DNA of 64,000 nucleotides from Candidatus Eiseniibacteriota bacterium (GCA_024276995.1 JAJRWB010000044.1:1-64000), one strand, 5' to 3'; counted from the stretch's first letter, positions 23,556-51,366 are shown. The notes: generated from the sequence alone by a model not told the origin. Translations and numbers: made by a program.

Positions 23556-25310
23556 TCAGAAGTCACCCGAGGCGGCGACATGGATCTTCCCTTCCATGAA
23601 ACCGTCCCCTTCGCCGAGGCCGTAGTCGATGCCGACTACGCCGATCCCCGAGTCGAGACGGATGCCGAGACCGACGCCCCGCTTCCACATCTCGTCGTTC
23701 ACGATCCGGCCGTCCCTTTCGCGGCGCGCGAAAATGTACCCGTAGTCGAAGAAGAGGAACGCCCGCGAGAGGGGGCCGAGGAGACGGCGCAGTTCGAACC
23801 GCCCCCAGGCGATGCGCGAACCGAGGAAGCGGTCTTCATCGTAGCCCCGAAGCGTCGCCGCGCCGCCGAGATAGAACTGGTCGTAAAGAGGAACCCTGTC
23901 GGCGCTGGTGAACCGGGCGCGACCGTTCATCTCCGCGGCGAGCACCACTCCCCCGACACGCCGGTAGAGATCGAAGGCGCCCTCCATCGTGGCGAGGCGG
24001 CTGGTGCTCTTTTCGATCCTCCGTTCCGGCTCCGCGTCGACGGTCCTTTCGCCGTACTCCGGATCGAAACGGAGGAGAAACCCGGACGAGGGGTTTCGCG
24101 GTGTGTCGGTGCCGTCGAACGTGAAGCCGACACTCCCCCACCGGCGGATGCTTCGCGGTACATCGCCCGCCTCGTCCCGCGGCTTGATCTTCTCGCTCCC
24201 CACCGCAAAGCGCGACGAGAGCCTCCCGCCCGACTCGAAGTCGATGAGGAGCGATGCCGACGTGCGCGACCACGAGGAGTCGCGCAGTGTCTGCTCCGCC
24301 TTCCCCCCCACGCCGAGAGGTGTGCCGAGGAACCATGGTTCCCTGTAGGCGAGGCGGACGCTCCGCGTGCCGGGTGCGATCCTCTCCCAGTGGATCTCAC
24401 CCCTTCGCGCCGTGCCGAAAAGATTTCGAAAGGCGATGTCCACGTAGCCGCTCAACACCCCTTTCTCCCCGTCCGTCCCGGGGGCGTATCCGAAGATCCC
24501 CTCGATCCGGTTCGACGGCGCCTCCCGAACGGCCAGCTCGATCACCGCCTCCTTCTCCTTCCAATTCACCCGCGTCACAGGAGGCGACACCGACCGGAAG
24601 AGACCGCTCCTGAGGAGGCGCGGCACGCACCGGTCGACCGCCTCCTGGTCGTATGGCTCGCCGAACCGGAGACCGGAGAGGCGCTTCACCGTGGAGACGC
24701 GGCTCAACCGGTTCCCCGTCACCGTCAGGTCGCCTAGAGTGACGAAAGGCCCTTCGACGAGACGGAAGGTGACGCCCACGCCGGGCGGTTCCCTTTCGTC
24801 GGTGACCGCCGAGACGACGAGACGACCGAACGGATGGCCCCGCCGGGCGTACCAGCGAAGGATCTCCTCACCCCGTTCTTCGAGCCGCGACGGATCGATC
24901 GGCTTCCCCTTCTCCCCCCGGAAAAGTCGTGCCGCCTCTTTCCCGCCGAGAAGGTCGGCTCCCTCCACGGCGAGTCTCGTCAGAGGGCGATACTCTCCCT
25001 CCGATACGGCGAGCGACACGCGAACCGCGTCCTCGTCCTTCCCCGGAGTCCGCGTCACCGTCACCGCAGCGTCGATGTAGCCGAGAGAGGCGTACCTTTC
25101 GAGCAGGCGCACAACGGCGGTCGACTCCGCCCCGACGCTCCACGGCGCTCCCTGCGCCCATGAAAAGATTTCGAGTGCATCGGTGGTCGAAATCACGCGG
25201 TTCCCCGTGATCTCGACCCTCTCGAGGGACCGTTCGGCCCGCGGGGCCGCCGCGAACAGGAACGACGCGAACAGAAGAATCTGCATGATCCGTGAAGATT
25301 TCATGTCCAT
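23556..25310 (-). CDS. Omp85-family outer-membrane assembly protein (BamA/TamA-like)
   Basis: A 584-residue protein with a signal peptide (about 1-25), three POTRA-like repeats (about 28-105, 108-187, 190-262) and a 16-strand-type barrel ending in Phe. The family's loop-6 signature is present as R488-G489-Y490 in LRGYDED. Members insert or translocate outer-membrane proteins. BamA usually has five POTRAs; three match TamA or a specialised homologue better. The start may be the second ATG (25304), which has better spacing from AGGATGG. It begins two bases after the large surface protein gene, so the pair is translationally coupled and may form a substrate-assembly pair. Confidence 0.88.
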   Translation of the reverse strand: MDMKSSRIMQILLFASFLFAAAPRAERSLERVEITGNRVISTTDALEIFSWAQGAPWSVGAESTAVVRLLERYASLGYIDAAVTVTRTPGKDEDAVRVSLAVSEGEYRPLTRLAVEGADLLGGKEAARLFRGEKGKPIDPSRLEERGEEILRWYARRGHPFGRLVVSAVTDEREPPGVGVTFRLVEGPFVTLGDLTVTGNRLSRVSTVKRLSGLRFGEPYDQEAVDRCVPRLLRSGLFRSVSPPVTRVNWKEKEAVIELAVREAPSNRIEGIFGYAPGTDGEKGVLSGYVDIAFRNLFGTARRGEIHWERIAPGTRSVRLAYREPWFLGTPLGVGGKAEQTLRDSSWSRTSASLLIDFESGGRLSSRFAVGSEKIKPRDEAGDVPRSIRRWGSVGFTFDGTDTPRNPSSGFLLRFDPEYGERTVDAEPERRIEKSTSRLATMEGAFDLYRRVGGVVLAAEMNGRARFTSADRVPLYDQFYLGGAATLRGYDEDRFLGSRIAWGRFELRRLLGPLSRAFLFFDYGYIFARRERDGRIVNDEMWKRGVGLGIRLDSGIGVVGIDYGLGEGDGFMEGKIHVAASGDF

Positions 25311-25311
25311 C

Positions 25312-28300
25312 CTAAAAGAACGCCCTCATCTCGGCGCGGAATCGATGATCGGCGCTCTCGCCCTTCCAATTCTCGCCGCTGTAGGCGAGAGACGATCGGA
25401 GAACGCTGCTCACGTCGTAGGCGAACCTCACGTTCCAGCGGACCCCCTCCCGCCTGTCGCGCAGGAACGAACGACTCCTGTCAACGTCGGCGCGAAGGAA
25501 GCGGTTCCACGAAAGCGACCCGTCGAGCCTCCCGGCGGCGGCGAGGTTGACGGCGGCCTCCGGCTCGACGCGGAACGATTCGATTGTCTCGTCGAGCACA
25601 CCCTCCACGTCCCGGGAAAGAGCGGCCGGAAGGCGAAAGCGCCAGCGGGGCGTTGGCTGGTAGACGACGCCCCCTTCCCATACGTCGCTTACCGCGTCGA
25701 CGGCGCGCTCGTCGTTCGACCACTGCTTCTCGATGCGGCGGTTCCACTCGACCTCGCCGGTGAAACGCCCCGAGAGGGGAAGCTTTCCCAGGAGCCTCAC
25801 CGTGTGGACCAGGTCGTCCCTGCGGAAGAGCGCGAAATCGTTCGCCTCCCTGTCCTCACGCTGGTAACGGAGCTGCACGCTCCCATCCGACTTCCGGTCG
25901 TCCCAGCGAAGCTCCTGGCGGAAGAGGACGGTGCCGCGAATCGTCGTGTCGTTCCGCTGGAACGCCCGCGGCTGGAGGAGGAGAAGAGGAGTGCGATCGG
26001 TTTCCCTCGACAGCTCTCGCACCGAGAGGAACAGGTCGCACCGGAGTCCTCCCTTGAGCCGCCCCGGCTTCTTTCCGCCCCCTCCCCGGCGGCGGCGAGA
26101 CGGATCGATCCGGATCGACGCGCTCGCCTCGAGATCGATGAGCGGCTCGGGCTCGCCGTCGACGAAGACCCGGTTGTACCCCCCTTCGCCGGGAAAGAAG
26201 TTGCCGAGGCTGTCGTAGTCCGCCGACGTGTCCGCCGGCGCCGGCACGAGGCGGATCTCCCGGGGCCGGCGCTCCTCGGAAGAGACCTGGTACGTCCACG
26301 TCCCCTGGAGGAGCCCGCCGAGTCCGCCGTGACGGGCCTCGATCCGCCCGAGATCGCTCGACTCGTTTCCCGAGGCCGCGCCGGGGGCGTACCGAACCGT
26401 GCGGTGGCGGAAAAGGCCGTTCACCGTCGCCGGCCCCCTCCAACGGCCGGAGATCTCCCCGGTCACGCCGTCGTACCATCCCTCGTAACGGCCGGCGATG
26501 CTGTCGACGACGTCCTTCTCCTCGAACGTCACGCTCGCGTCGGCGCTCGCCGAACCGCTCTCCATCGCAAGGGCGTAGCGCTCCTTCGCCGAGCGGATCC
26601 CCCCGACAAGAGAGTCGCGGCGTGAGAAGTCTCGCCGCTCCCGCTTCACCATCACGGACGGCTCGAACCAGCCGGCCCGGAAAGCGCCGCTCACCGAACG
26701 GATCAACCCATCCCCGTCGGTCGTCCCATCCTCGCCGCCGTCCGACTCGCTCTTCACCCGTTCCCGCTGCGCGCTCACGCGGTAGCGCTTTCCGCTCCGC
26801 ACCGAAGCGAGCGCCTCGTAGCGCGCCGATCGGAAAAGATCCTGGACCAGGCGGCCCGCCCTTCCGGTGACCACCAGATCGCTCCCCTGAGTGCTCCCGC
26901 TCCACGTCCCTTCACCGTTCCACATCGATTCCCTTCCCCGGGCGGCACTCGCCTCTCCCTCTCCCACACGGTCTTCCTCCGCCCGCGTCGACGTGAGAAG
27001 CGCCCGCTCTTCCACGGTCATCCATCGGTCGTCCCTCTCCGTATCCCTGTATCTTCCCAGGGGCTCGAAGTTCGCCGCCACACGCCGCCACGCCCCCGAC
27101 AGCGAAAGACGGCCGAAAGGTCTCTTCCCGCCGCCGAGGCGGAAGGGAGCGACCTTCATGTCGACGGCCGCACCCGTTCCGCGGTTGTCGCCGTCGTCGA
27201 GATCGGAGAGGATGTTCCTGTCGAGGTCGGACCACGCCCACTCCCCCTCGACGGCGACACCGCTCGACGGAAACGCCTTCGCCCGCAGGTGGACGACCCT
27301 GTGGGACGCCGGGAGCGGGAGGGGGACCACCGGATCGTAATCGGCCGCGCCCTCTCCGGCGAAGACGAAGATCTCCCGTCCCCACTCCGCCGAAATATCC
27401 TTTCGATACGAACCCTTTCCGCTTCCGACGTTCCTGAATGAAACGGTGAACGCCCCCTCCCCCGGCCCGGCGTAGACGAACACGCCGCCGAGGGTGTCGT
27501 AGTCCCCCCCCTCCTCGACGGCACGGCCACTCGGAACGAGCGCCTGCCGGTCACCCGATGCGGCGAGGGAATCGAGATCCTCCTCGGTGAGCACCAGTGC
27601 TTCGGGACGGTTTTCGTCGTCTTTTTCCTGGAAGAACGCCCCTTCCATGCGGAAACGGTCTCCCTCGTTTCCCACGTGGAACCGGTTCGTGAAGAAACTT
27701 CTTTTGTACTGATCGCCCGATACCTGGAAGTCGACCGAAATGCGGCTTTCAGACATGATCGGCCGCGACGGATTGAAAAGGAGCGTCGCGGCGTTATAAT
27801 CGATGACGTAGTCGTTCTGATCGCCCCGCGTCATCTTCTCCCCGTCGAGCCATACCGATTCGCTTCCCGCCACGATCACCCTGTCCGATCCGGAGGCGAT
27901 CAGATCGTAGGGACCCTGCTTCCCCTCGGCGCCGCGGATGTCGACGGAGAGGAACTCTCCGCGGGCCAACCCGCCTGACAATTCCACGCCGACCGGCCCG
28001 CGGGCATAGCTTCCGAGCACCCCCTTCAGCACGCGGCGGTACGCCCCGAACCGCCCACCTCGGAAGTCGACATCATAGTCGCCGAGCGTCGCCTTCGCCG
28101 ACGGCGATTCGACGGCGATCACCACCTCGTCAAGCTGCTCGAGCCGTTCCGACCGACCTTCCGGCTGGAAAGGGAGATTCTCGTCGGTGAGCCGCGCGGT
28201 GACGCGGACATCGGGGGCGAGGAAACCGTCGACACTCACGCGAAGCGCCTGCTCGAGCTTCAGCTCGCGGCCCGAACCGATCACCACGGCAAACGACTTG

Positions 28301-28749
28301 CTCCCCCCCACGCGAACGGTCCCCCGGTCGAGCGGTCCCGAAAAGGACGAAGGGGCATGCTCCGGCGTCACGATGCCGACCCCCTCCCCCGCGAAACGGA
28401 GGCGGTTGAGCGCCAACTCTCCCTTCAGCGGGAGGGGAAGGGAGCGGAATGCGACCACGGCACTGTCTCCGGAGACGAGGGGATAATCGAAGGAGATCTC
28501 CCCGCGGTCGTAACGCATGAAGTAATCGGTGTCGCGGACCAATTCCTTCCCGTGAAGGGTCACCGTTTCCGACCCGGCGATCAGCGATTCCGAGCCGAGC
28601 GAATACGGACCACGCCGGTCCTCACCCGCCACCACCACCATCCGTTTACCGAGACTGTACGTTTTCGGTGTTAGGAAGAGATCGCCCGCCCCGGCGGCGG
28701 ACGGAAGGAGCATGAGCACCACGAGGAAGAGCTGCTTCCTAGCGCCCAT
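25312..28749 (-). CDS. Large outer-membrane protein with repeated GSE/DY modules
   Basis: A 1145-residue protein with a clear signal peptide (about 1-22). Two related modules, near residues 47-100 and 279-340, share the order GPY-L, AGSE-V, a G-E turn, DY, Y, a hydrophobic strand and a final V-F. The rest is strand-rich with many aromatic and charged alternations, ending in RAFF as outer-membrane barrels do. I do not recognise a family with certainty; the module pattern recalls segments repeated in SprA, the type IX translocon, but that is from memory. Start ATG 28749 overlaps the NHL gene by 11 bases; the frame to 28863 is a shadow. Confidence 0.72.
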   Translation of the reverse strand: MGARKQLFLVVLMLLPSAAGAGDLFLTPKTYSLGKRMVVVAGEDRRGPYSLGSESLIAGSETVTLHGKELVRDTDYFMRYDRGEISFDYPLVSGDSAVVAFRSLPLPLKGELALNRLRFAGEGVGIVTPEHAPSSFSGPLDRGTVRVGGSKSFAVVIGSGRELKLEQALRVSVDGFLAPDVRVTARLTDENLPFQPEGRSERLEQLDEVVIAVESPSAKATLGDYDVDFRGGRFGAYRRVLKGVLGSYARGPVGVELSGGLARGEFLSVDIRGAEGKQGPYDLIASGSDRVIVAGSESVWLDGEKMTRGDQNDYVIDYNAATLLFNPSRPIMSESRISVDFQVSGDQYKRSFFTNRFHVGNEGDRFRMEGAFFQEKDDENRPEALVLTEEDLDSLAASGDRQALVPSGRAVEEGGDYDTLGGVFVYAGPGEGAFTVSFRNVGSGKGSYRKDISAEWGREIFVFAGEGAADYDPVVPLPLPASHRVVHLRAKAFPSSGVAVEGEWAWSDLDRNILSDLDDGDNRGTGAAVDMKVAPFRLGGGKRPFGRLSLSGAWRRVAANFEPLGRYRDTERDDRWMTVEERALLTSTRAEEDRVGEGEASAARGRESMWNGEGTWSGSTQGSDLVVTGRAGRLVQDLFRSARYEALASVRSGKRYRVSAQRERVKSESDGGEDGTTDGDGLIRSVSGAFRAGWFEPSVMVKRERRDFSRRDSLVGGIRSAKERYALAMESGSASADASVTFEEKDVVDSIAGRYEGWYDGVTGEISGRWRGPATVNGLFRHRTVRYAPGAASGNESSDLGRIEARHGGLGGLLQGTWTYQVSSEERRPREIRLVPAPADTSADYDSLGNFFPGEGGYNRVFVDGEPEPLIDLEASASIRIDPSRRRRGGGGKKPGRLKGGLRCDLFLSVRELSRETDRTPLLLLQPRAFQRNDTTIRGTVLFRQELRWDDRKSDGSVQLRYQREDREANDFALFRRDDLVHTVRLLGKLPLSGRFTGEVEWNRRIEKQWSNDERAVDAVSDVWEGGVVYQPTPRWRFRLPAALSRDVEGVLDETIESFRVEPEAAVNLAAAGRLDGSLSWNRFLRADVDRSRSFLRDRREGVRWNVRFAYDVSSVLRSSLAYSGENWKGESADHRFRAEMRAFF

Positions 28750-29659
28750 GGCCCGGATCGCCGCATCGGAAGATGACGAGCCTGTCGTTTCCCGTATCTG
28801 AAATGTAAAGGAGTCCCGTGTCTCCCACCGCCACGCCCGAGGGGGCGCGGAGGGGCGAACCATCGGAGAAACGGTCGATCACCCCGGCAAACTCGCCACC
28901 GGGGGCGTAGACGATCACCGCGTTCCGGTCGATGTCGGCGACATAGAGCCGTCCGTTGAGATCGACCGCCACCGCCGCCGGCCGCACGAGCCGTCCGTCG
29001 CCGGCCGCGTCGCCGATAACCTCGAGAAAGCCGCCGAGGGGGTCGAAGACCTGCACCCTGGCGTTGTCCCTGTCGCAGACGTAGATCTTCCTCTCGCGGT
29101 CGACGTCGATTCCCGCCGGGTAGCGGAAACGTCCCTCGTCAACGCCGTAACCACCGAGGATCATCTCCGCGTCGCCGGTGTAGGAACGGAAAATCCGCAC
29201 CTGGTCCACTTCGATGTCGGAGAGGTAGATCCGCCCGAAGCGGTCGACCGCCATAGCGACGGGGATATCGACGTCCCCTTCGTCACGGGAGAGAATGATC
29301 CCCTGGGAGACTTCGTACCGGTCGAAGACCTGCACCCTCTCGTTGCCGTCTTCGAGAACATAGAGAAAACGACCCTCCACGGCGACATCGACGGGGTCGA
29401 GAAAACGGCCCTGGGACGAGCCTGCGAAACCGATGCGCGAAACGTAGGCGCCGGCGGAGTCGAACACCACCACCCGGTTGTTCCCCTCGTCGGCGACGTA
29501 CACCTTTCCGCCGAACCCGACCGTCACGCCGGCGGGCGAGGAGAGCGCCCCTTCCCCCTCGATACCGGCGATACCGACCGGATCGCATGCGATGAAAGCG
29601 CCGGGCGTGCCGGCGCAAACGGCGAGGAGGACGGCGGTTGTCAGGAGTTTGTCGATCAC
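28739..29659 (-). CDS. Exported NHL-repeat beta-propeller protein
   Basis: A 306-residue protein with an N-terminal export signal ending in FIAC at residue 25, which could be a poor lipobox. Six NHL repeats follow, each with the pattern PAGVTV...VYVADEGNNRVVVFD, forming a six-bladed propeller. Such domains bind proteins, peptides or glycans at the cell surface. The start is GTG at 29659 with GGGGAGA upstream. It is in the middle of the secretion operon and overlaps the large surface protein gene, so it may be an accessory partner of it. Confidence 0.85.
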   Translation of the reverse strand: MIDKLLTTAVLLAVCAGTPGAFIACDPVGIAGIEGEGALSSPAGVTVGFGGKVYVADEGNNRVVVFDSAGAYVSRIGFAGSSQGRFLDPVDVAVEGRFLYVLEDGNERVQVFDRYEVSQGIILSRDEGDVDIPVAMAVDRFGRIYLSDIEVDQVRIFRSYTGDAEMILGGYGVDEGRFRYPAGIDVDRERKIYVCDRDNARVQVFDPLGGFLEVIGDAAGDGRLVRPAAVAVDLNGRLYVADIDRNAVIVYAPGGEFAGVIDRFSDGSPLRAPSGVAVGDTGLLYISDTGNDRLVIFRCGDPGHGR

Positions 29660-29685
29660 CGATGTCTCCCCTCAGGAGACCGGGG

Positions 29686-30447
29686 TCAAAAACGGCTTCG
29701 AAGCGCCACCCTCAAGAGCGGGGGCTCGCCCTCCCGTGGAGGTATGAACCGGATGTGCGACGCGGCGCGCCCGGCGACGTTTCCTCCCGGCCCGGTGCCG
29801 TGGGCCGCCTCCACCGCGCTGATCGCGCGGTTGAGCACAGCCGCCACCAGGGCGAAATCGGCACGCTGCCCCGAGTCGCGGGCGTCGTTGCGGATCAGCC
29901 TGTACTCGAGGCGCCTTTGATTGTTCTTCCATTTGAAGTAACGGTCGGCGCCGTATTGATGCTCCGCCTCGTAGCGAAGCTGGGCGTCGCGATCGTCGGG
30001 GAAGAGGGTCCGCGCATCGATCCGCACGCCCATGTTGTAGTCGTCCACGCTGTCGTAGATCGTGAGCAACCTGTAAAACTCCTCGTCCTTCCCACGCCCG
30101 GGCACGTCTGCGAACGATTCCGCCCACTCCTCGAAGTCATTCGTCCTGTAATGCTCCTGGAATTTGAACACGGCGAAGCTCGTCCAGATCATCCCCTCGA
30201 GTCCGAGAAAGATCCGGCTTCTCAGGGTGCGCCCGCCGTAGCGCTGGCCGAGACCGGGCACGAAGAGGGAGAGGAGAAATGCTTTTCGCTTCGAGTATTC
30301 CTGCGCCCTCACCACGGCGCCCCCCTCGAGGTCCGCCTCCGCCTCCTCCGCCGCGAGGGCCCGCCGAAAGGCGCGGTCGATCGGTTCCCCCGCGGCGAGG
30401 GCGGGAAGGAGGGCGAGGAGCAAAAGCGCCGTGATGTTCCTTTTCAA
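29686..30447 (-). CDS. Membrane protein with PGLGQ motif (DUF5683-like), copy A
   Basis: A 253-residue protein: signal peptide (1-20), then a hydrophobic segment SLFVPGLGQRYGG followed by a second hydrophobic helix containing GLEGMIWTSFAVF, a long polar central region, and a helix near the C-terminus with LNRAISAVEA. The final residues RVALRSRF form a last strand. The PGLGQ pattern recalls DUF5683. The TTG start at 30447 has GGGGAGG upstream. It is a diverged paralogue of the next gene upstream (30459-31274), which has the same motif order. Function unknown; location between the protease and propeller genes suggests an envelope role. Confidence 0.78.
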   Translation of the reverse strand: MKRNITALLLLALLPALAAGEPIDRAFRRALAAEEAEADLEGGAVVRAQEYSKRKAFLLSLFVPGLGQRYGGRTLRSRIFLGLEGMIWTSFAVFKFQEHYRTNDFEEWAESFADVPGRGKDEEFYRLLTIYDSVDDYNMGVRIDARTLFPDDRDAQLRYEAEHQYGADRYFKWKNNQRRLEYRLIRNDARDSGQRADFALVAAVLNRAISAVEAAHGTGPGGNVAGRAASHIRFIPPREGEPPLLRVALRSRF

Positions 30448-30458
30448 CCGAGCCTCCC

Positions 30459-31274
30459 CTAGAAGTTGTAGGCCAGCCCCACCGTGCCGCCTACGCCGGT
30501 CACCGGACTTCCAAAATCGATCGACAGCCCGTCCGGCACCTCGGCGTCGCCCCGGGCTAGGCGGCGGGAGGTGAAGTAGGCGTCGAAAGCGGACACGCCG
30601 TGATTCGCGATTATAGCAAGAAGCCAGTGTCTCGACGTAGTGAGAAGATCGTTCTGCTTCCGCCGCATGGCGCGGTACTCGACGCGCATCGGCGTCTCCT
30701 CGATGACCACCCCTTCGTCCTCCCGGAGATAGACCTCGTCGGGGTAATCGTCCCAGCCGCAGATCCACTTTGGCAGCTTGTGAATATCCTCGTAGAATTC
30801 GAGACGCTGCGCCTCGGTGTCGAGTACCGGCGGCTCGGGAAGGGCGTCGCGGTACTCGTTCGGATAGGAACACGGGTCTTCCTTCCAGTGCCAGTTTTCG
30901 TCGGCGTACGCCCGGTAGATGTCCTGTTCGTCCCAGCCGCGGCGCTTGTAGTCGGCGTACTGCACCCAGCCGAACCCTTCGAAAGCGGCGTACCCGGCGG
31001 CACGCACCCCCGAATAGGAGATCACATCCCACCCCGACGCATAGAGCTGCCCGAGTCCCGGAAGGAGCGCCGACAGGAAGAAGGCGTTTCGCGGCGTGGG
31101 ACGGTCGTGCGTCGTCGCCGGGGCGAGCACGTCATCGACCGCCTGAGGCGGGGCCTCGAGGCGGCGGATCTCGGTGCGGAGCGCCACGGTGAAATCGGAG
31201 TCGGCACGGGCCTGCGGGACGGGGCAAACCGCCAACACCGCCGGCAGGAAAAGAACGATACGAACGATACGCAA
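30459..31274 (-). CDS. Membrane protein with PGLGQ motif (DUF5683-like), copy B
   Basis: A 271-residue protein with a signal peptide (about 1-24), a hydrophobic segment SALLPGLGQLYASG, a Gly/Ala/aromatic helix (AAGYAAFEGFGWVQY), a polar middle with many Trp, Tyr and Asp, a helix HWLLAIIANHGVSAFDAY and a terminal strand GTVGLAYNF. It shares overall plan and the LPGLGQ motif with copy A, 11 bases downstream, so the two probably arose by duplication. The TTG start at 31274 has AGGAGGAAG upstream. Function unknown. Confidence 0.78.
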   Translation of the reverse strand: MRIVRIVLFLPAVLAVCPVPQARADSDFTVALRTEIRRLEAPPQAVDDVLAPATTHDRPTPRNAFFLSALLPGLGQLYASGWDVISYSGVRAAGYAAFEGFGWVQYADYKRRGWDEQDIYRAYADENWHWKEDPCSYPNEYRDALPEPPVLDTEAQRLEFYEDIHKLPKWICGWDDYPDEVYLREDEGVVIEETPMRVEYRAMRRKQNDLLTTSRHWLLAIIANHGVSAFDAYFTSRRLARGDAEVPDGLSIDFGSPVTGVGGTVGLAYNF

Positions 31275-31298
31275 GACGACTTCCTCCTCGCCGGAAGG

Positions 31299-34200
31299 CT
31301 ATCGCACAATGGCGACCTTGATGAATTCCACCTCGTCTCCCGCGGCAAGACGTACATAGTAGACACCGCTCGGGAGATCGACCGTATTCCAAACGATTTC
31401 GTTCGAACCGAAAGCACCGCGCACGTTTCGGCTCTCCACCAGCCCACCCGCCATATCGTACGCTTTCATTTCCACGTTCTCCTCGCGGCTCAACTCGAAA
31501 CGAATCGCCGTCTCCCCCCCTCTTGCCGGGTTCGGATAGGCGAAGGCATCGGCAATGTCCGCCCGTCCCCTCGACGGCGGCGCTGGATCATCGAGACGTC
31601 GCGAGGCGAGAAAGTGGCGGCCCCGAATCCCCCCGGCCCTGCCGGGCCAAAGGGCGACACGGTCGGGATCGAAGGTGGAACGGAAAGCGTAGAGAAACCC
31701 GTCGCCGCTGAGGGCGTACAGCCCGCTTTCTCCATCGCCGATCAGGGGCGCCGCGGCGAGCACGCCGTTCGCCGCGCCGGTCGACAGCGGCCAGTCGTCG
31801 CGGATTTCGTCGCGTTTCTCCCACGCCCAGAGCCTGCCGGAATCGTCGCCCATCACGGGGGAGGCGCCCGCCGTCCCGGTGAAGATGCCGGACACGCCGT
31901 TTCCCGTCAGCGCCGCGGTGGAATCGCGCAGAAGTTCCGGGATCTCGAACGGCGTATCTTTCAGGATCACGCCGGTCCTTTCGATCAGGAAGAGATCGTG
32001 CCCGGCGGGGACGGCGAGTTCCGGAAAACCGTCGCCGTCCCGGTCGGCAAAGAACGGTTCGCCCGTCACCGCCGCGCCGAGTTCCACCGGGTACCCGTCG
32101 AGCGGTTCGGCGTCTTCGAAAAAACCGTAGACCGTGCCGGTGGCCTCGTCGAGGGCGAACCAATTGTCCGCGCCGTCGCGGTCGATATCCCCGCCGATCA
32201 GCCGCGCGGATGCGACGGGCGGGATCGTCGCGACGATGTCGACCCCGCCGAGGGCGGGACCGAAGGAGAGGCGTGCCATGGCGCCGCCGTCGGTGACGAC
32301 CCGGACCTCGCCGTTCGCGCCCCACGGGGCGGCGAGGTTCGACACCGGCCTACCCGGGAGGGGTATCGACATCCGGCGGGAGAGCGTATCGCCCGCCACG
32401 CTCCAGGCGGTGAGTGAGTCGGCTGTCGCGGTGATCACCTCGTCGGCACCGTCCCCGTCGATGTCGACCGCGACCGGATCGGCGCGGAGCGTGTCCGGCC
32501 CGATCGACCCGAGCGCCTTCCACAGGCCGGGCAGGTCGTCGCCGATACGGACGACCGTCCCGTCGTCGAGGAAGGTGACCGCTTCCTTTCCGGGGAGATC
32601 GACACGAAACTCCCCACCGGCGGGGAAAACCGCCACGAGGCCGGGCAAAGCGCTTCTCGTCACCACGGGCGGTTTGCCGTCGTCCCCCCCGCGGACCGAG
32701 GTCACCCCCGAGATCAACGTTCCGGCCGAGTCGAAGGAGATCCATACCGCGAGGAGCCCTCCGCTTGAGGCGGGAAGGAGCCCGGCCGGTGCGATGATCG
32801 TCGAGTCGCCGGTCATCGCCACCGGGAAGCCTTCCACCGAACCGGCCATGTCGATCTGAACGGTCATCACCGAATCGGCCGCGCTGATCTTCGAGAACTC
32901 GACGAACGACCGGCCGCCGTCGCTCAGGTCGGTATTCGGGGCGGTGCTCGGCCCGAACCGGTCGGCACTCCCCTCGAAAAAGGGATCGTACGGGCTGCCG
33001 TCCCAGTACGCCGAGAATGGGTTTCCCAGATCCTTGATCCCGTCCGCCTCCTCCAGTTCGAGTCCCCGGTCGTTGAAATCGACATTCACGTTGTTGAGCG
33101 CCACACGCAGCGGATTGATGTTCCGCTCGTTCACATGCCAGATCAGCGTTCCCCAGCCGGGAAGGGCGAAATCGTAGTCGTACGTCGGCTCGCGTAGCGA
33201 ATCGTTCGTCACCGGACCGAGCACGACGCTGTTCAGCGAATCGACGCGGGCGGCGAACTGATCGACCGGTGCGAGCCCGAAACGGTTCTCCACGAGAAAA
33301 TACTCGCTCGAGTTGAGCGGTACCAAGGCGTAACGCACGCTCTTTGCCGGAGGATCGGGATGGGTGGCGCATGCGATCGCCAGCGCCTGCGGCCCGGTGA
33401 CGATCACCGGATCGATCCAGCCGAGATAGAGTTTCGACCAGGCGCTGAGCGACGCGGGGATGATTCCGCCCAGGAAGGTGTCGCCCGAGCTGATCGATAC
33501 GAGTCCGCCGCTGTCCATCAGATCCCACTGTCCCACGGCCGGCCAGAAAGTGTCGGTATTGTAAAGGTCCGGAAGGCCGAGCTGGTGGCCGAACTCATGG
33601 GCGAGGACGCCGTTCAGCCCGAAGGTGAAACCGTCCTGGCTGTCGTATTCGGGCAGGCACGTCACGCCGGTGACGGCGAACGAATCGCTATCCTGGTCGA
33701 CGTAGACCAAGTCCGAATCGCCCAGCGAGAGGAAGAAGCTCGGGATGTCGCCGGGTGAATCCCCGTTGATGTCGGTTTGGACATCGGGTCCCGCGTGAAA
33801 GATCAAGTAGCCGTCGAACGAGGAGAAGTCGACGGATGGGTCGATCGTATCGACATGAACGATCACGTCGGTGCAGAACTTGACGAGCAGGTCGCTCCGC
33901 TCGATGAGATCCCACGAACCGGGGTCTCCCTCGGGGAGGTAGTCGTCCGTGTCGCCGAGACGGTATGTGCTGCTCGGTCCGGCCGGGTAGATCTTCCACT
34001 CCACCACCGCCCGGCCGTACGACTGCTTCGAATAGTACGTACCGAGCACTTCCATTTGCGTGTTGAAATAGGTCGAATCGTGGGGGGGGAAGTCGACCGG
34101 GTAGGGCCAGTTCTCATCCGGCTCGAGGAGGAACCGCCCCCCAGGGGCCGTCGTCAGGTCGCCGGCGCTGTCCTCGTCCCAGTCGACCCGGAAGATCGCC

Positions 34201-34487
34201 ACGCGCACCGTGTCCGGCCCGGACATTCTTTTTCCTTCAAGGATCTCGTCATAGCGCCGCCCCGCCCCGGGGAGAGGAGATCGGAGCGGCCCGGTACCGA
34301 GAACGCACGGGAAGGGAACCTGCCGCGGCTGCGCGAGGACGCCGGTCGCCCTCTTCGGCGCACCGCCGGGAAGGAGTCGTTCGAGGGGCATCGTCCCGCG
34401 CCCGCCCGCGACCGCACCGACCGGCGCCGACAGCGAAAGGAAGACGAGGCCCGGCAGTAGGGCGGTGGTCGACGGAAAACGGATCAC
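31299..34487 (-). CDS. Secreted M6-family metalloprotease with C-terminal sorting-like domain
   Basis: A 1062-residue exported protein. After a signal peptide (about 1-27) comes a peptidase M6 (immune inhibitor A-like) domain with zinc motif H297-E298-x-x-H301 in HEFGHQLGLPD and the downstream Met turn in WDLMDSGG. Residues from about 560 to 960 look like beta-rich repeats with DxDxDG calcium-type motifs. The last 87 residues start with FAYPNPARGG and end in VEFIKVAIVR, a type IX-sorting or FlgD-Ig-like domain. The start is GTG 34487. It lies 22 bases after the PorV-like gene and is a likely cargo of that system. Confidence 0.9.
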   Translation of the reverse strand: MIRFPSTTALLPGLVFLSLSAPVGAVAGGRGTMPLERLLPGGAPKRATGVLAQPRQVPFPCVLGTGPLRSPLPGAGRRYDEILEGKRMSGPDTVRVAIFRVDWDEDSAGDLTTAPGGRFLLEPDENWPYPVDFPPHDSTYFNTQMEVLGTYYSKQSYGRAVVEWKIYPAGPSSTYRLGDTDDYLPEGDPGSWDLIERSDLLVKFCTDVIVHVDTIDPSVDFSSFDGYLIFHAGPDVQTDINGDSPGDIPSFFLSLGDSDLVYVDQDSDSFAVTGVTCLPEYDSQDGFTFGLNGVLAHEFGHQLGLPDLYNTDTFWPAVGQWDLMDSGGLVSISSGDTFLGGIIPASLSAWSKLYLGWIDPVIVTGPQALAIACATHPDPPAKSVRYALVPLNSSEYFLVENRFGLAPVDQFAARVDSLNSVVLGPVTNDSLREPTYDYDFALPGWGTLIWHVNERNINPLRVALNNVNVDFNDRGLELEEADGIKDLGNPFSAYWDGSPYDPFFEGSADRFGPSTAPNTDLSDGGRSFVEFSKISAADSVMTVQIDMAGSVEGFPVAMTGDSTIIAPAGLLPASSGGLLAVWISFDSAGTLISGVTSVRGGDDGKPPVVTRSALPGLVAVFPAGGEFRVDLPGKEAVTFLDDGTVVRIGDDLPGLWKALGSIGPDTLRADPVAVDIDGDGADEVITATADSLTAWSVAGDTLSRRMSIPLPGRPVSNLAAPWGANGEVRVVTDGGAMARLSFGPALGGVDIVATIPPVASARLIGGDIDRDGADNWFALDEATGTVYGFFEDAEPLDGYPVELGAAVTGEPFFADRDGDGFPELAVPAGHDLFLIERTGVILKDTPFEIPELLRDSTAALTGNGVSGIFTGTAGASPVMGDDSGRLWAWEKRDEIRDDWPLSTGAANGVLAAAPLIGDGESGLYALSGDGFLYAFRSTFDPDRVALWPGRAGGIRGRHFLASRRLDDPAPPSRGRADIADAFAYPNPARGGETAIRFELSREENVEMKAYDMAGGLVESRNVRGAFGSNEIVWNTVDLPSGVYYVRLAAGDEVEFIKVAIVR

Positions 34488-34509
34488 GACCCTGACAGTC
34501 TCCTTCTTC

Positions 34510-35487
34510 CTAGTAGGTGAACCCGAGAGCGAACCGGTTCACCCGGGGGAGACCCTCCGCCTGCGGAACCGAGGCGTAATCGAAGCGGGCGTTGATCGCC
34601 TTGATCTTGATGCCCACGCCGTACGTCGGATCCTTGATGTTCCCTTCGTTGTCGTAGATATAGCCGAACCGCGCCGCGGCCATATCGTAGTACTCGTACT
34701 CCAGGCCGAACTTGTCGATGGCGTCTCCGTCGAGATAGACGAGCGACTTCGTCACCTCGGCGGTGACGAGGAAATGATGGAGCGCATTGTCGAGAGGCAT
34801 CCATGAGATGCCCGCCTTCACGTTCCTCGGGAGCGGTTCCGCCTGGTTCTGGTCGTTGTAGACGATGTCGAGGCCGAGGTTCTGTACGAGCAGCCCGGCC
34901 TTGATATTCCAGTCGGGCATCCGGTAGAGCAGCGAGAGATCGCCCCCCACCGACACGCCCGTGCCGTCGTCGATGCCCAGTTCGATGATATTCGGCGAAA
35001 GCTGGGAGTAGATGAACTTGAACGACGCGCCGTACGCGAGATTCGGCGTGAGCGTCGCGCCGTAAGAGATCATCGGGATGAAGTCGAAAGAGCTGAAATC
35101 GCGAATCAGGTTCCCCGTCTCGTCGATCGCCTGGGAACTGCCCAGGTTGAGAAAGATGACGCTGAAACCGACGCCGCCGCCCCACATCGGCTTCGAGTAG
35201 GCGAGGTAGTTGTAGGCGATATCGTCGGCGAGCCCCTCGGCGAGCTTCGAGTACATCAGAACGATGTCGGGCTTCGTCTGCCAGGCGAGACCGCCGGGGT
35301 TCCAGAATGCCGCCGTGGCGTCGTCGGCGATCGCGACGAAAGACTGCCCCATGCCGGCGGCGCGGGCATTCGGCGTAAGGAGGGGGGCGATCGACGCCGG
35401 TGCCCCCTCGGACACGGCGTTCGCCGACGCCGCCGCGAAGAGCACGCCCGCCAGGGCGATGAGTGTGTACTTCCTATGAAAAGCCAT
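34510..35487 (-). CDS. PorV/PorQ-family outer-membrane protein
   Basis: A 325-residue barrel of the FadL-like PorV/PorQ family, with signal peptide (about 1-24) and the family's N-terminal signature: ARAAGMGQSFVAIADDATAAFWNPGGLA. (shown here only as pattern ARAAGMGQ, then DDATAAFWNPGGLA). In type IX secretion PorV carries cargo to the PorU sortase at the outer membrane. The ATG at 35487 has GGGGAGGAGACG upstream; the frame to 35544 is not supported. The 84-base gap to the C25 protease gene upstream is AT-rich and has a TATGAT element (35556-35561) without a clear -35 box. C25 protease followed by PorV-like protein mirrors the porU-porV order. Confidence 0.9.
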   Translation of the reverse strand: MAFHRKYTLIALAGVLFAAASANAVSEGAPASIAPLLTPNARAAGMGQSFVAIADDATAAFWNPGGLAWQTKPDIVLMYSKLAEGLADDIAYNYLAYSKPMWGGGVGFSVIFLNLGSSQAIDETGNLIRDFSSFDFIPMISYGATLTPNLAYGASFKFIYSQLSPNIIELGIDDGTGVSVGGDLSLLYRMPDWNIKAGLLVQNLGLDIVYNDQNQAEPLPRNVKAGISWMPLDNALHHFLVTAEVTKSLVYLDGDAIDKFGLEYEYYDMAAARFGYIYDNEGNIKDPTYGVGIKIKAINARFDYASVPQAEGLPRVNRFALGFTY

Positions 35488-35571
35488 TTTCTTCGTCTCC
35501 TCCCCGGGAGACGGGCCACCACGGCTCCGTCCCTCCGAATTCAACCGTAATCCTTATCATAAATTTCTGAA

Positions 35572-38500
35572 TTATTCGACCCCCCTGAGAACGACCACCC
35601 TGCCGATCGATTCCGCTTCCTCCGACCCGTCGTCCGAAACGGCGCTCGCGCGGACCAGGTACGTCCCGTTCGCCACAATATCGCCGTCGGCGTCTCTCCC
35701 GTCCCAGCGGCAGTCCTCGAGCATCACCGGCCCCGACGCATGGCACCCCCGGAACTCTCGGACCCGCTTCCCGGTGGACGTGAAGATCTCCACCGTCACG
35801 AACCCTCCCCGCGTGAGATCGACGAAAAAGCCGGTATCCTCCCTGTCCGGGTTGAACGGGTTCGGATAGTTGAGTACGTCTTCCCGGAAGGCGAGCGTCG
35901 AACCTTCGGCCACGAGGACCACCGGGTAGACCACCTCCACCCTCTGGTTCAAGTTATCGGCAGCTCGGAAAGCAAGTTCATGCCCCCCGTTCTGAATCGC
36001 GACGTCGGGGAGATCGTCGAGACGGAAGGTGAACCCCCCCTTCGTGTGGCTGTTCCGATCGTACGTGAACATCGACGTGAGATCCTCCGGCCGCCCGCCG
36101 TCGAAAACGATGTTGATCGTGTAGAAATCGTCGTTCTGCTGCAGGTTGACGCCTGATTCGTCCTCGAGCACCACCCGGAACACCGATTCCCTCGTGAACG
36201 ACGTTCCGTTCCTCAACGGGACGCCGTCGACCTCGAGAGAGAGGGCCGGCGGCTCGTTGTCCGACGGCGTGGTGCCCGCCGGCTCGGCGGTCACCGTGAC
36301 CGAGTCGTCCCCCCCCGCGCCGTCGACGCGGTCGGAAGGGGAGACGACGTAAGCCCCGACCCGACCGAGAGTGCCGAGGCGGGTATCGAGGGGAACGAAG
36401 AAGGTCGTTTCGAAGCGCCCGCCCTTCACATCGACCACGCCACGGAAGAAAGTCGGCCCGTTGAGCGTGTACTTCTGCCGGATCTCCTGGGGCTTCTCCT
36501 CGGTGCCCTGGCAGAACTTGTCCTGGAAGCGGTAGCCCGACGTGTCCGCCATCCCTCTCACGTCGAGGTGGCAGTCGCCGTCGAACCAAGCAGCCACGGT
36601 GGAGTCGTTCTCCATCACCGAGCCGCCCACCGTGACGAAGGTGCCCCGCTGAAACTCGAGATCATCGATATTATCGAAACGTACTTCCATCGGCGGCACG
36701 GCGAGCCTGAGCGCCGGGTCGCCCATGATGTTGTACTTCTCGTCGTTCAGCTTCTCCCCCGAGTGACGCGCGCCGGCGGTCGCCTTGGCGACCATCGCCG
36801 CAAGACCGACCGAGACCGTACTGTGTCCCGTGGGGAAGAGTTCGAGGAAGAACGCCCGGTTGAGCCGCATGCTCGGGTTCGGAAACGCGGGCGCGCCCGA
36901 AGCGAACGAACCGATCGCCCCGGCCCCTTCCATCTTGACGAAGATCTCGGAAAGAGAGTTCACCTCGAGAAGATCAAAGCTGCCGATGGAGCACGACCAC
37001 GCCGTGAACAGCCCGAGCCGCTTCCCGTTGCGGAGTCTTTCGGGCACCGCCACCGAACCGTCCAGGATATTCTCATCCGCCATCTTGGCGAAGCCGCCGT
37101 GACCGGTGTACGACGAAACGAGAAAACCATCGGTTACCCAGTCGAGGTAGGCGTCCCTGGCGCGCGGCTTTTCACCGCCGTCGTTCAGCGGGTACTCGGT
37201 GAGATACACTTTTTCCATTTCAAACGATTCGGGGATGAGAACGGCGGTGCGCTCCACGTCGCGTACGTGGGCGAGACGGAAGGCGCAGTCGTAGTCGAGC
37301 CCCTTGCGCTCGTCATCGCCGAGCCACAGAAGCCTGTTCCGCCACTCTCCGAACTCCGGATCGTTGTCGTAGTCGATGATCTTGTTGACCACCACACTCA
37401 CCTCTTCGGCGGAATTGGCCGGGATCCTGCCGATGGCGATATCGGGCACCCAATCGGGATCCCCCGTAGCCGGGTCGAGATAGGTGAAGTAATCGTCCGT
37501 GGGGTACATGAACTCGTCGAACCCGGCCGGATCGATGTAGAAATACGATGGAATGAGATCGTGGAGCGCCGTTTCCGACCGGCCCTTCCAATCATTCGTG
37601 GCGTCCCCCACGAGAAGGGCGTAGGCCAGCCGGTTCTCCCCCTCCTCGCCCGCCGGCCATTCATGATACGCCCACAGGAGAAAATCGCGCACCGCGGAAA
37701 CATCCTTCTGCCCCCACGAAAACTGGTCGTACACGTCGGAGAGGAGCACCGTCTTCACGGTGTACTCCTTCGCCCGGTGAGCGGCGAGCGGCGCGGCGGC
37801 GGAAGCGTATTCGTCCCAGTCGATGATCACGTACTGCGCTCCGGAACCGGGCGCTCTCAGGTTCAGCATATCCCGCTTCACCAGAGTGGCCGGCGTCTTC
37901 CACTTCGACTCGGAGAGTGCTTCGAATGTGGCCGCGCCGGAAAGGGAGAGGTGCGCCACGAGGGTGTCCCCCTCGACGGCGAAGCCGCTCAGCTCCGAGG
38001 GCGCGAACGGATCGGTCACGTCGAAAATACGGTACGAAACGCCGCTCGACGCCCCGGAAAGATTGACGACGAACGCCCCCGCCTCCGGGAGGCGGAAGTG
38101 GAGGCGGTCGTCGGACAACCGGAGATAGTGGTCGTAGCCGATTTCGATCCAGTCGAGAAAGAACTTCGATCGGAATGACGCGGTTGTCGAATCGCCGAGC
38201 GTCTGCTGCCCCGATCTCGCCTGGATGCGCACGAAGTTCGAACCGTCCTTCACCCACTGTCCGGTGGATTCGAATACGACGCTCGAGATTCCCCCCGTGC
38301 TCGAACGGATGCAGCTGTTCCACGTGATCGAGTCGGCGGGAATATTGTTCACCGAAAACACGGCGCGCTCGTTGCCGCAAATGCTGACGGCATCCCCGAA
38401 ATGAAAAAGATTGGCACGCAACAGGCCCGGCGCGGTCGTGTCGGCATCGTCGATTACCAGGTTCCGGAAGGCCTTGTCGTTTTCGTTTTGCGAGAATCGA

Positions 38501-39753
38501 TCCCAGAACCAGCCGTCCGAACCGGGTCGGGTCAGATCCTGGATAAAATTGACCTCAAAATGGATTCTCTCGGGCACGGTGAGGATGGGCGTCTCGCCCT
38601 CGACGGCGGTGGAGGCGTCGACGGAGGCGATCCGGTCCGCCACCTCCTCCTGGAAGTCGCCCCCCCAGGTGAGCCAGTAGACCCCTTCATCGGCGTAGCG
38701 GTGTTCGTACCACCGCCAGTAATCGGTGGTATCCGGCCTGAACTCTCCGATCCACCCCTTCGATCCGAGGGCGAAGAACTCGATCCGGTCTGTCGGATCG
38801 AATGAGCCGTCGTCTTCTCCCGTGACATGGATCGAAACCTGTCGCATCCATTCGGGACGGGGCGCGTCGACCAGCTCGGGAAGCACCTGCCCTCCTCCCC
38901 AATAGAGGCGGATCCCCCGGGGGTCGCCCACCGCCGAGCGCGGGTCGATCACCCCCGCCGCCGCGAGGTCTTCGTACGATACGCCGTACATTCCCCTCTC
39001 CTTCACGCTGATCCGGATCCAGTCGGACGACGAGAAGAAGGAATCGCCGGCGGTCCGGGCGCTTTTTCGGCGCGGGGGGGGGGTGCGCCAGGCGGAGGCC
39101 GTTCTCCTGTTGATCACGACATCGTTGTAGAGGGCGTCGAACGGATCGCGGTGTGAGCCGCCGAGCGTCGCGCCCTTCGGCGCCTCGATTCCTCCCGTGA
39201 AGGTGATCCGCAACGTGCCGCTCCTGAGCAGGGCGGTCTTGCCGCTTCCCCTGTCGAAGCGGACCGGGTGAAGCGTGACGGTGGCCACCCGCAGATCCCT
39301 CAGCCTGGAGGGGCGGGAGACTTCGAACCATCCCTCGGGGAGAAGACCGCCCGGCGCGTCGTCCGCCCACCGGAGGGTTTCCGACTTGCCGGGACCGTAG
39401 ACACCGGGAAAAGGTTCGACGTCGAAGCGGGACGATTCTTCCACCTTCCGGTCGACCAGTTCCACGCGGATGTCGCTGCCGGGAGGGAGCGCCACGATAA
39501 GGTTTCTCACCGGAACGGCGGGGAAACCGGCGCGGGAGTAGCCCTCGTGCCAGGGAAAGCCGCTCCAATCGCCCTTTCTCTCCGCTTCGCCGGCGGGCGG
39601 AAGGGTGTAGCGGAGCACGAGTCCTCCCCGGCTTTCCGAAAGAACGGTCACGTCGGGGTAGAACGACGAAGCTCCGTGAACGGAAGTCGATCCGCACAGA
39701 AGGAGGACTATCGCGAAGGGGGCGGCGAACGGCGGGTGAAACGTCTTCGTCAT
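35572..39753 (-). CDS. C25-family cysteine protease, PorU-like
   Basis: A 1393-residue exported protein: signal peptide (about 1-28), a long beta-rich N-terminal region, a gingipain-type peptidase domain (about 640-1010) with the catalytic pair His885 in YTGHGGF and Cys921 in WSCSIGSF, an Ig-like stretch, and a C-terminal domain (from about 1291) opening with NYPNPFNP. The His-Cys spacing of 36 fits C25 peptidases. PorU, the type IX sortase, is a C25 homologue of similar plan encoded next to porV, as here. It could instead be a secreted gingipain-like enzyme. The ATG at 39753 follows GAGGTATGG and overlaps the upstream gene as ATGA. Confidence 0.88.
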   Translation of the reverse strand: MTKTFHPPFAAPFAIVLLLCGSTSVHGASSFYPDVTVLSESRGGLVLRYTLPPAGEAERKGDWSGFPWHEGYSRAGFPAVPVRNLIVALPPGSDIRVELVDRKVEESSRFDVEPFPGVYGPGKSETLRWADDAPGGLLPEGWFEVSRPSRLRDLRVATVTLHPVRFDRGSGKTALLRSGTLRITFTGGIEAPKGATLGGSHRDPFDALYNDVVINRRTASAWRTPPPRRKSARTAGDSFFSSSDWIRISVKERGMYGVSYEDLAAAGVIDPRSAVGDPRGIRLYWGGGQVLPELVDAPRPEWMRQVSIHVTGEDDGSFDPTDRIEFFALGSKGWIGEFRPDTTDYWRWYEHRYADEGVYWLTWGGDFQEEVADRIASVDASTAVEGETPILTVPERIHFEVNFIQDLTRPGSDGWFWDRFSQNENDKAFRNLVIDDADTTAPGLLRANLFHFGDAVSICGNERAVFSVNNIPADSITWNSCIRSSTGGISSVVFESTGQWVKDGSNFVRIQARSGQQTLGDSTTASFRSKFFLDWIEIGYDHYLRLSDDRLHFRLPEAGAFVVNLSGASSGVSYRIFDVTDPFAPSELSGFAVEGDTLVAHLSLSGAATFEALSESKWKTPATLVKRDMLNLRAPGSGAQYVIIDWDEYASAAAPLAAHRAKEYTVKTVLLSDVYDQFSWGQKDVSAVRDFLLWAYHEWPAGEEGENRLAYALLVGDATNDWKGRSETALHDLIPSYFYIDPAGFDEFMYPTDDYFTYLDPATGDPDWVPDIAIGRIPANSAEEVSVVVNKIIDYDNDPEFGEWRNRLLWLGDDERKGLDYDCAFRLAHVRDVERTAVLIPESFEMEKVYLTEYPLNDGGEKPRARDAYLDWVTDGFLVSSYTGHGGFAKMADENILDGSVAVPERLRNGKRLGLFTAWSCSIGSFDLLEVNSLSEIFVKMEGAGAIGSFASGAPAFPNPSMRLNRAFFLELFPTGHSTVSVGLAAMVAKATAGARHSGEKLNDEKYNIMGDPALRLAVPPMEVRFDNIDDLEFQRGTFVTVGGSVMENDSTVAAWFDGDCHLDVRGMADTSGYRFQDKFCQGTEEKPQEIRQKYTLNGPTFFRGVVDVKGGRFETTFFVPLDTRLGTLGRVGAYVVSPSDRVDGAGGDDSVTVTAEPAGTTPSDNEPPALSLEVDGVPLRNGTSFTRESVFRVVLEDESGVNLQQNDDFYTINIVFDGGRPEDLTSMFTYDRNSHTKGGFTFRLDDLPDVAIQNGGHELAFRAADNLNQRVEVVYPVVLVAEGSTLAFREDVLNYPNPFNPDREDTGFFVDLTRGGFVTVEIFTSTGKRVREFRGCHASGPVMLEDCRWDGRDADGDIVANGTYLVRASAVSDDGSEEAESIGRVVVLRGVE

Positions 39754-41314: not shown

Positions 41315-42103
41315 CTAGAACCGGTCGATGTAGTTGATCCGGATCTCCCGGCTCCAGTCGCCGATGTCGGCGATACGGGTCGCGCCTTCATTGTTCTCGA
41401 GGAGGTTGCGGAACTCGAAGGTCATCCGATAGCTCCGTGACACCTGCCAGAGAAGGCCGGCGGAGAGATAGCCCTTGCCCTTGCCGAAGACGCCGTCGTC
41501 CGAATTGTCGTTGAGTGCCACGTCGTATTCGGCGAGGAGATCGACCCCCCGGGAGATCGATTTCTCGATGCCGAAGAAAAGATCCGGATCGTTGTCACCG
41601 TCCTCCCTTTCGAGGCTGTAGTTGACCCCTCCGTTGAGCCCGAGTTCGCCGAGCATGAGGAAGTGCTTCGTCGCCACGGCGTAGAACCCTTTCGACTTGA
41701 ACTGATACCGATCGAGAGCATTGTCGTAATAACCATAGCCCTGGGAGTTGAATCCGACCCCCACGGCGGGGCCGACATACGACTCGTCAAGCAGTTTCGT
41801 CCGGAACTCGAACTCCACCCTCGGATTCCAGTCGGGCGAGCCGGTTCCGAGCACCTGGAGACCGCCGAAGGAGAAACCGAAAAGGATCCTGTCGAGGAGG
41901 CCTACCCGAATGCCGGCGAGTACGCCGCCGGCGGAATAGAGCCTCAGGTTCATGTCGTACGAGCCGTGGGGCAGGATCACCGCCGTCGGCGTATCGATCA
42001 TGTCGATCGGATCGTCATCTTCCTGTTGCGCCGCGGCGCTCCCCGGAAAGAGAGCGGCGACGGCGGCAAGCACGAGGAGAACGGTCAGGGAGCGGCGAGC
42101 CAT
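41315..42103 (-). CDS. Outer-membrane beta-barrel protein, YjbH-like in pattern
   Basis: A 262-residue protein with a signal peptide ending in SAAAQQ (about residue 25) and regular amphipathic strands to a terminal INYIDRF, as in small outer-membrane barrels. The opening DTPTAVILPHGSYDMNLRLY and the GLLDRILFGFSFG repeat recall YjbH-like or conserved hypothetical barrels of the same group. Function unknown. GGGGGAG precedes the ATG. First gene behind the TTGACA promoter and coupled to accA. Confidence 0.75.
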   Translation of the reverse strand: MARRSLTVLLVLAAVAALFPGSAAAQQEDDDPIDMIDTPTAVILPHGSYDMNLRLYSAGGVLAGIRVGLLDRILFGFSFGGLQVLGTGSPDWNPRVEFEFRTKLLDESYVGPAVGVGFNSQGYGYYDNALDRYQFKSKGFYAVATKHFLMLGELGLNGGVNYSLEREDGDNDPDLFFGIEKSISRGVDLLAEYDVALNDNSDDGVFGKGKGYLSAGLLWQVSRSYRMTFEFRNLLENNEGATRIADIGDWSREIRINYIDRF

Positions 42104-48626: not shown

Positions 48627-48641
48627 CTTCTTCCTGCCTCT

Positions 48642-50678: not shown

Positions 50679-50763
50679 TGCATTCGCTCCCCGCGGCCGA
50701 TTCGCGCCGCCTTTGAGTAAAGTCGCGGACCGGTTTCCACCCCGGCCGGGAACCGCTTCGACG

Positions 50764-51189
50764 TCATGAACCATCCTTCCGTCCGATAATCCGCTCTACA
50801 TTCAGCACGGCAATCAGTTCCTTCTCCGTTCTGTGCACACCCGATAAGTATCGCCCCACACTGTCGTCGATATGGGGGGGTGGCGGCTCCAGGCCGGCGG
50901 TATCCGCTTCGGCTATGTCATCGACGCTGTCCACGAGCAGGCCCGTGTCCCCCTCGCCGGTTCGAACCACGATGATCCGCCCATCCTTGTCGGTCTTCCG
51001 CGGTTCCAGGCCGAGAATCCGCCTGACGTCGATTACATTGACGATCTCCCCCCTGAGGTTGATCACCCCGCAAACATGTTCGGGGGCGAGACGGACACCG
51101 GTAATCTCGAGGTTCCGGTTGATCTCCCGCACCAACGTCGTATCGATCCCGCACTTGATATCGCCTACATTGAAGACGGCATATTTCAC
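50764..51189 (-). CDS. cheW: Chemotaxis coupling protein CheW
   Basis: A 141-residue protein of one CheW fold that links receptors to CheA. Visible are the opening [14 protein letters not shown], the [23 protein letters not shown] core (quoted as [14 protein letters not shown]) and the LLVDSVDDI strand. The GTG start at 51189 is supported by GGAAGGAACGAT and by the normal length; the open frame to 52104 contains the receiver remnant and CheA shadow. It lies between cheA and the receptor gene. Confidence 0.93.
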
Positions 51190-51263
51190 ATCGTTCCTTC
51201 CGTCCGTGTGGAGCGCCGACTCCACGGCTACGCCCCTTTGGGTATGCATGACGCCGATTCGAC

Positions 51264-51366
51264 GCCCCCGGGTCATCCCAACCCCGTCCATCACCGGCAT
51301 CTCGATATCGGTGAGAACGAAGCCGATTCCGCCCGGGCGTTTCCCGAGGCGTCCGACCTCTTCCCC
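51264..51366 (-). pseudogene. Remnant of a CheA C-terminal receiver domain, out of frame
   Basis: In the cheW frame upstream of cheW the sequence reads EEVGRLGKRPGG, then FVLTDIEMPVMDGVGMTR, the unmistakable phospho-acceptor region of a response-regulator receiver. In the cheA frame the preceding codons (EADTVVAG) fit the start of the same helix. Moving by one base within GGGG at 51363-51366 joins them. The first acidic pair and everything after MTR are missing, so the domain is a degenerate relic even if the shift is a sequencing error. Confidence 0.6.

Follow-up and report, generated by a model that had tools for sequence, protein, structure and literature searches.

Introduction

Knowledge of the type IX secretion system (T9SS) comes from a few Bacteroidota. 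In Porphyromonas gingivalis its attachment complex consists of PorU, PorV, PorQ and PorZ. The system was at first described as confined to Bacteroidetes (PMC4793230), and its presence in further FCB phyla, among them Ignavibacteriota, Gemmatimonadetes and Cloacimonadota, is now considered possible (PMC11285876). In Flavobacterium johnsoniae, substrates stall within SprA when the motor is disrupted (PMC10994853); PorG, attached to the GldK track, is believed to pass force on to the translocon (PMC12635249). Our search of open-access journal papers returned no report of a T9SS in Eisenbacteria, nor of the eight-gene operon or the protein (here called P7) that are the subject of this analysis. 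The window is the whole 64,000-nt stretch of DNA that was analysed, and all positions are counted from its first letter.

Results

An eight-gene run with the spacing of an operon

ORF calling on the window gives eight genes on the minus strand between 23556 and 39753 (Table 1), in the order listed by the original prediction, which had been made from the sequence alone. The start codons of PorV, the second DUF5683 protein and P7 were assigned by reading the sequence. With these likely starts the intergenic gaps from PorU downward are 84 (PorU–PorV), 22, 24, 11 and 26 nt, NHL and P7 overlap by 11 nt and P7 and Omp85 are 1 nt apart; the spacing given originally (every gap below 85 nt and most below 30) was therefore correct. 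Gaps this tight, and the overlap, make a single transcript likely, and on its sequence the set is likely to be one tight operon.

AccA lies ∼570 nt upstream of the operon and a GNAT–LigA–HAL run lies downstream. The genes scanned in the remainder of the window belong to housekeeping, type IV pilus/chemotaxis and respiratory functions; no RNA families or tRNAs were found in the 64,000 nt. The pilus genes (PilC, PilT and a sigma-54 response regulator with a kinase) and a chemotaxis cluster of Pil-Chp type (PilJ/MCP, CheB and CheW) lie within 1358–8549 and 47499–52104, and 54907–63998 is a nuo gene run (NADH:quinone oxidoreductase). Upstream of AccA, at 41315–42103, is the gene for a 262-residue exported protein that resembles a small outer-membrane barrel and has no family match.

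Table 1. Genes of the operon in the window, listed from PorU downward.
Feature	Position	Strand	Evidence
PorU-type C25 sortase, 1393 aa, signal peptide, catalytic His885 and Cys921	35572..39753	-	NF033707, PDB 6za2, residue conservation
PorV/PorQ-family outer-membrane barrel	34510..35487 (ORF 34510-35544; likely ATG start 35487)	-	NF033709, 6h3i_F
M6-family metalloprotease, intact HEFGHQLGLPD, C-terminal type A sorting domain	31299..34487	-	PF05547 and PF18962
DUF5683 protein a, PGLGQ hairpin, signal peptide	30459..31274	-	PF18935 just below cut-off; conserved order
DUF5683 protein b, likely TTG start 30447	29686..30447	-	PF18935 below cut-off; conserved order
NHL beta-propeller, signal peptide, probably periplasmic	28739..29659	-	PF01436
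P7, 1145 aa, two GSE/DY modules, SprA-related giant predicted beta-barrel	25312..28749 (longest ORF starts 28863; likely ATG 28749)	-	AlphaFold2, HHalign
Omp85-superfamily protein, 584 aa, ∼3 POTRA domains, loop-6 LRGY motif	23556..25310	-	PF07244 and PF01103

Identity of the genes flanking P7

In family profile scans the sortase scores 545.9 bits on NF033707 (cut-off 420), and it matches the solved P. gingivalis PorU (PDB entry 6za2) with an E value of 1.9e-46; its catalytic His and Cys are invariant in 31 of 31 aligned PorU sequences. The adjacent barrel scores 185 bits on NF033709 (cut-off 90) and matches the PorV of the SprA complex (6h3i_F) with an E value of 3.1e-9, and reaches 119 bits against the 250 set for the PorV equivalog NF033710. 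On sequence it is thus a PorV/PorQ-family barrel, nearest to PorV and under the PorV equivalog cut-off. Both the PorU-like C25 protease and the PorV/PorQ barrel had been predicted and both families are matched above cut-off, the assignment being weaker for PorV proper.

The M6 protein passes the cut-offs for the protease family (PF05547, 31.2 bits; cut-off 22) and for the Por_Secre_tail domain (PF18962, 34.3 bits; cut-off 27), and HExxHxxGxxD is kept in the M6 protein of the 15 operons checked. Its best NCBIfam match, the T9SS-dependent inactivated type NF052323, was rejected at 275.8 versus 600 bits, with the HEFGH intact. No other protein of the operon matches a sorting-tail profile above cut-off; the C-terminal sandwich of PorU falls within the PorU model itself. 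The expectation that both proteases would end in a T9SS sorting domain thus holds for M6 and is less well supported for PorU. DUF5683 proteins a and b score 25.1 and 20.8 bits on PF18935, just under the cut-off of 26.7. Three further C25 proteins are encoded in the genome, on contigs C34, C24 and C72 (four in total with the operon PorU), and two of the three match the PorU model partly (155–162 bits).

On the other side of the DUF5683 genes, the NHL propeller scores 103.7 bits on PF01436 (cut-off 20). Its orthologues mostly carry an N-terminal signal peptide and have no obvious lipobox, and the protein is probably periplasmic; it has no PorZ profile match and no sorting tail. The Omp85 protein is above cut-off for PF01103 (66.3 versus 24 bits) and for PF07244, and below it for the BamA equivalog TIGR03303 (108 versus 297 bits); the LRGY motif of loop 6 was read from its sequence.

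The remainder of the T9SS in the host genome

The host genome, that of an uncultured member of Eisenbacteria (3.76 Mb, 96% complete), encodes a full-length SprA of 2133–2157 residues on contig C75 (L038:9774-16175), beside rimP–nusA. This SprA scores 516–531 bits on TIGR04189 (cut-off 200) and also matches solved SprA chains. The sorting-tail profile TIGR04183 has 108 matches in the genome, 101 of them over cut-off. With SprA and about 100 sorting tails encoded elsewhere in the genome, a T9SS is, as read from the sequence, present and the locus in the window is one dispersed part of it. The proposed link of the locus to type IX secretion is accordingly upheld by the PorU score and catalytic residues, the PorV family membership, the sorting tail and a gene order that is conserved in relatives; neither outcome named beforehand as refuting it was seen. 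The gene after SprA often encodes an M28-aminopeptidase/DapE-like protein of ∼300–350 residues (seven of 21 loci; C75 and L138–L157), possibly a cargo-processing enzyme.

Motor genes had been reported missing from the window, and for the GldL and GldM profiles this extends to the whole genome: TIGR03513, TIGR03517 and PF12081, which are built from Bacteroidota and could pass over a divergent motor, gave no match. In a survey sample of 193 genomes, nearly one per family, SprA was found in 55, and GldM was above cut-off in a single genome (G068), itself without a SprA match. It is possible that the T9SS motors of the surveyed SprA genomes are divergent or not yet recognised, the GldM profiles having been built from Bacteroidota. 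P7 was considered as a replacement for GldLM, or as a marker of a GldLM-less T9SS. Of 297 genomes from the phylum to which G068 belongs (GldM-bearing, and presumably Bacteroidota), 175 carry P7, in some of them next to an NHL gene, and this removes any simple anti-correlation.

P7 and its relation to SprA

P7 stayed below the cut-off of every Pfam and NCBIfam family model in the profile scans; the one NCBIfam match is a 40-residue stretch of SprA (TIGR04189, 19.2 bits against a cut-off of 200). The P7 profile had no match among PDB sequences. An AlphaFold2 model built on a 65-sequence alignment has a mean pLDDT of 82.3 and a pTM of 0.71, and ∼40 strands of at least seven residues were counted from the DSSP line of the predicted structure, which exceeds the usual receptor and LptD barrels. 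The 'GSE/DY surface protein' of the original prediction would therefore be an outer-membrane barrel, as modelled, rather than a surface adhesin. The strand count of the P7 model is close to the 36 of SprA (PMC10994853). Using Foldseek, the best PDB matches of the model by E value are SprA (8gl8, 1.6e-10; 8gl6, 2.7e-10), with low TM-scores of 0.2–0.3 and with TonB-dependent receptors scoring almost as well.

HHalign of P7 with 21 SprA sequences gave E values of 1.3e-9, 6.9e-9 and 2.3e-6, while the controls (Omp85, PorV, PorU, M6, NHL and reversed SprA) gave 0.36 or worse. The two best matches are a small GSE…DY module, which is also present in an FlgL-type protein of the host genome and in a phage distal-tail family. 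The FlgL-type flagellar protein (L057, ∼9189–10415; G000 C80) carries the same 'GVDYSVDYQTGRI' module as SprA and P7. A module this promiscuous is not diagnostic of SprA homology; its matches were discarded as proof and the comparison was repeated with the modules masked. Residues 107–275 of P7 then matched the N-terminal region of SprA with a modest E value of 2.7e-5, and the C-terminal barrel matched the C-terminus of SprA weakly (1.4e-3; controls for both 0.23–0.64). At the sequence level P7 thus appears to be related to SprA, modestly so outside the shared module, and not to be SprA itself; an assignment as SprA/Sov proper was rejected on the TIGR04189 score and on length (1145 versus ∼2100 residues).

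Conservation of the gene order

A single P7 sequence found no matches in genome contigs, but an alignment of closer relatives did find them when used as the query. The best named relatives, both in the GTDB family of the window, are a Candidatus Eisenbacteria MAG (L059, on the same contig as G001) and a MAG labelled Gemmatimonadetes (L058, on the same contig as G005). The order is kept in six of six genomes of that family as far as the contigs extend, with GNAT–LigA–HAL downstream in most. Beyond it, PorU–PorV–M6–DUF5683–(NHL)–P7–(Omp85) occurs in the same order and on the same strand in eight other GTDB families (G031, G107, G135, G140, G072, G108, G015 and G075), counted by contiguity from PorU to P7; the window's own family makes nine. 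NHL was not detected in G108 and G015, nor Omp85 in G107, and G031 stops at a contig edge; G178 and G163 seem to carry this locus too, divided by the ends of contigs. The comparison of gene order in relatives that had been suggested thus shows conservation within and outside the family, and far beyond chance.

The operon is not always whole. The NHL–P7–Omp85 trio stands alone in KSB1, Calditrichota and LCP-89, and the PorU–PorV–M6–DUF5683 set is apart from P7 in G064, G150, G161, G013, G157 and G009. Since each is found separately, we treat them as two modules, A (PorU to DUF5683) and B (NHL to Omp85). In Ignavibacteria P7 is alone, flanked by housekeeping genes.

Among the 193 genomes, 41 have both P7 and SprA, four P7 only, 14 SprA only and 134 neither (Fisher test, 2.8e-25; 4.5e-22 once same-family duplicates are removed), and PorU is over cut-off in 36 of the 45 genomes with P7. 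The co-occurrence is inflated by shared ancestry within the FCB phyla, and the operon linkage is for this reason the stronger argument.

Discussion

A possible role for P7 and its alternatives

We propose, with about an even chance of being right, that P7 is a SprA-related protein which serves the T9SS as an accessory channel or platform in the outer membrane, partnered by a propeller in the periplasm and by an Omp85 insertase of its own, and that the operon joins two T9SS modules. Module A would act at the receiving end of secretion: cargo bearing a sorting domain at its C-terminus would exit through the full-length SprA encoded elsewhere, the PorV-type barrel would carry it, and PorU would cut and attach it. 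The M6 protease would itself be such cargo. These steps start from identities, an operon, its conservation, a SprA and cargo tails that are all read directly from the sequence. For module B we infer every functional step from a predicted barrel: the trio would build another outer-membrane barrel of very large size, a distant relative of SprA, with the Omp85 protein inserting P7 into the outer membrane, the NHL propeller binding its periplasmic side and P7 providing T9SS cargo with an accessory channel or a platform on which to dock. The proposal draws on the contiguity from PorU to P7 in distant families, the recurring trio, the co-occurrence of P7 with SprA, the predicted strand number and the profile and structure matches of P7 to SprA. 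The strongest matches of P7 to SprA being a promiscuous module and the remaining ones modest counts against this, as do the low TM-scores, the near-equal TonB-dependent receptors, the frequent location of module B away from module A, the isolated P7 of Ignavibacteria and the shared ancestry that confounds the co-occurrence.

A rival reading is that the operon holds two functionally separate outer-membrane modules: module A would be the T9SS attachment machinery and NHL–P7–Omp85 an unrelated envelope device (an importer, for example, or a lipid or polysaccharide exporter), co-expressed only because both build the surface. We take this main rival as a real, if tentative, possibility. The modules are apart in many genomes, with P7 alone in Ignavibacteria, and receptor-like barrels match the model almost as well as SprA does; against it stand the linkage from PorU to P7 in nine families, the strong co-occurrence of P7 with SprA and PorU, and a modest profile similarity outside the shared module that is specific to SprA. 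A broader form of the accessory-channel proposal, that P7, NHL and Omp85 are an unrecognised and widespread second T9SS outer-membrane pore which shares a common ancestor with SprA and is powered differently, in bacteria without the known GldLM motor, seems to us unlikely. More doubtful again is that P7 is a second, smaller translocon which works in parallel to SprA on a subset of the cargo with the adjacent PorV: PorV and PorU are encoded beside P7, some profile segments are SprA-related and the predicted barrel is of similar size, but P7 lacks most of the SprA sequence (19 versus 200 bits on the SprA model) and SprA is also present in almost all genomes with P7. The original idea of a compact alternative T9SS in place of the canonical one fits the tight operon and the lack of GldL/GldM profile matches, but we consider it very improbable: the genome encodes, away from the locus, a full-length SprA and about 100 cargo tails, which contradict a replacement of SprA by the locus, and P7 occurs in addition to SprA, not in its stead.

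If P7 does belong to the T9SS, as in the accessory-channel proposal, the outer-membrane machinery has so far been incompletely described, and cultured strains with P7 would make its role directly testable. The sortase and shuttle genes of the T9SS lie here in one conserved operon with a member of a giant-barrel family that is uncurated and occurs in 45 of the 193 genomes, a sample of almost one genome per family. The recurrence of this order in several distant families suggests that the T9SS may have a second large pore or platform that has been overlooked. Across the sampled families, genomes that have SprA and give no GldM profile match pose the further question of what powers the T9SS outside the models.

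Comparison with known systems

The host resembles the T9SS of Bacteroidota (SprA/Sov, PorV, PorU and cargo with type A C-terminal domains) in the PorU His and Cys, the PorV-family barrel, the SprA elsewhere in the genome and the ∼100 sorting-tail proteins, and differs in having no GldL/GldM profile match. PorU and PorV here share an operon with M6, DUF5683, NHL, P7 and Omp85, an arrangement that is absent from the literature searched. As in the P. gingivalis attachment complex, the genes for PorU and a PorV-type barrel are together and a β-propeller gene is nearby; the NHL propeller differs in lacking a PorZ profile match or sorting tail, and the attachment complex excludes P7 and Omp85, unlike the present operon. 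The Omp85 protein has the POTRA repeats, Omp85 barrel and LRGY loop-6 motif of the BamA/TamA insertases, but is shorter, under the BamA cut-off and genetically tied to P7. P7 itself is shorter than SprA/Sov (6h3i, 8gl8; TIGR04189), far under the SprA cut-off and co-occurs with true SprA, whereas it resembles SprA in its very large single-chain barrel (predicted for P7), in the GSE/DY module, in having SprA as its top PDB match by E value and in an N-terminal barrel segment that can be aligned to SprA.
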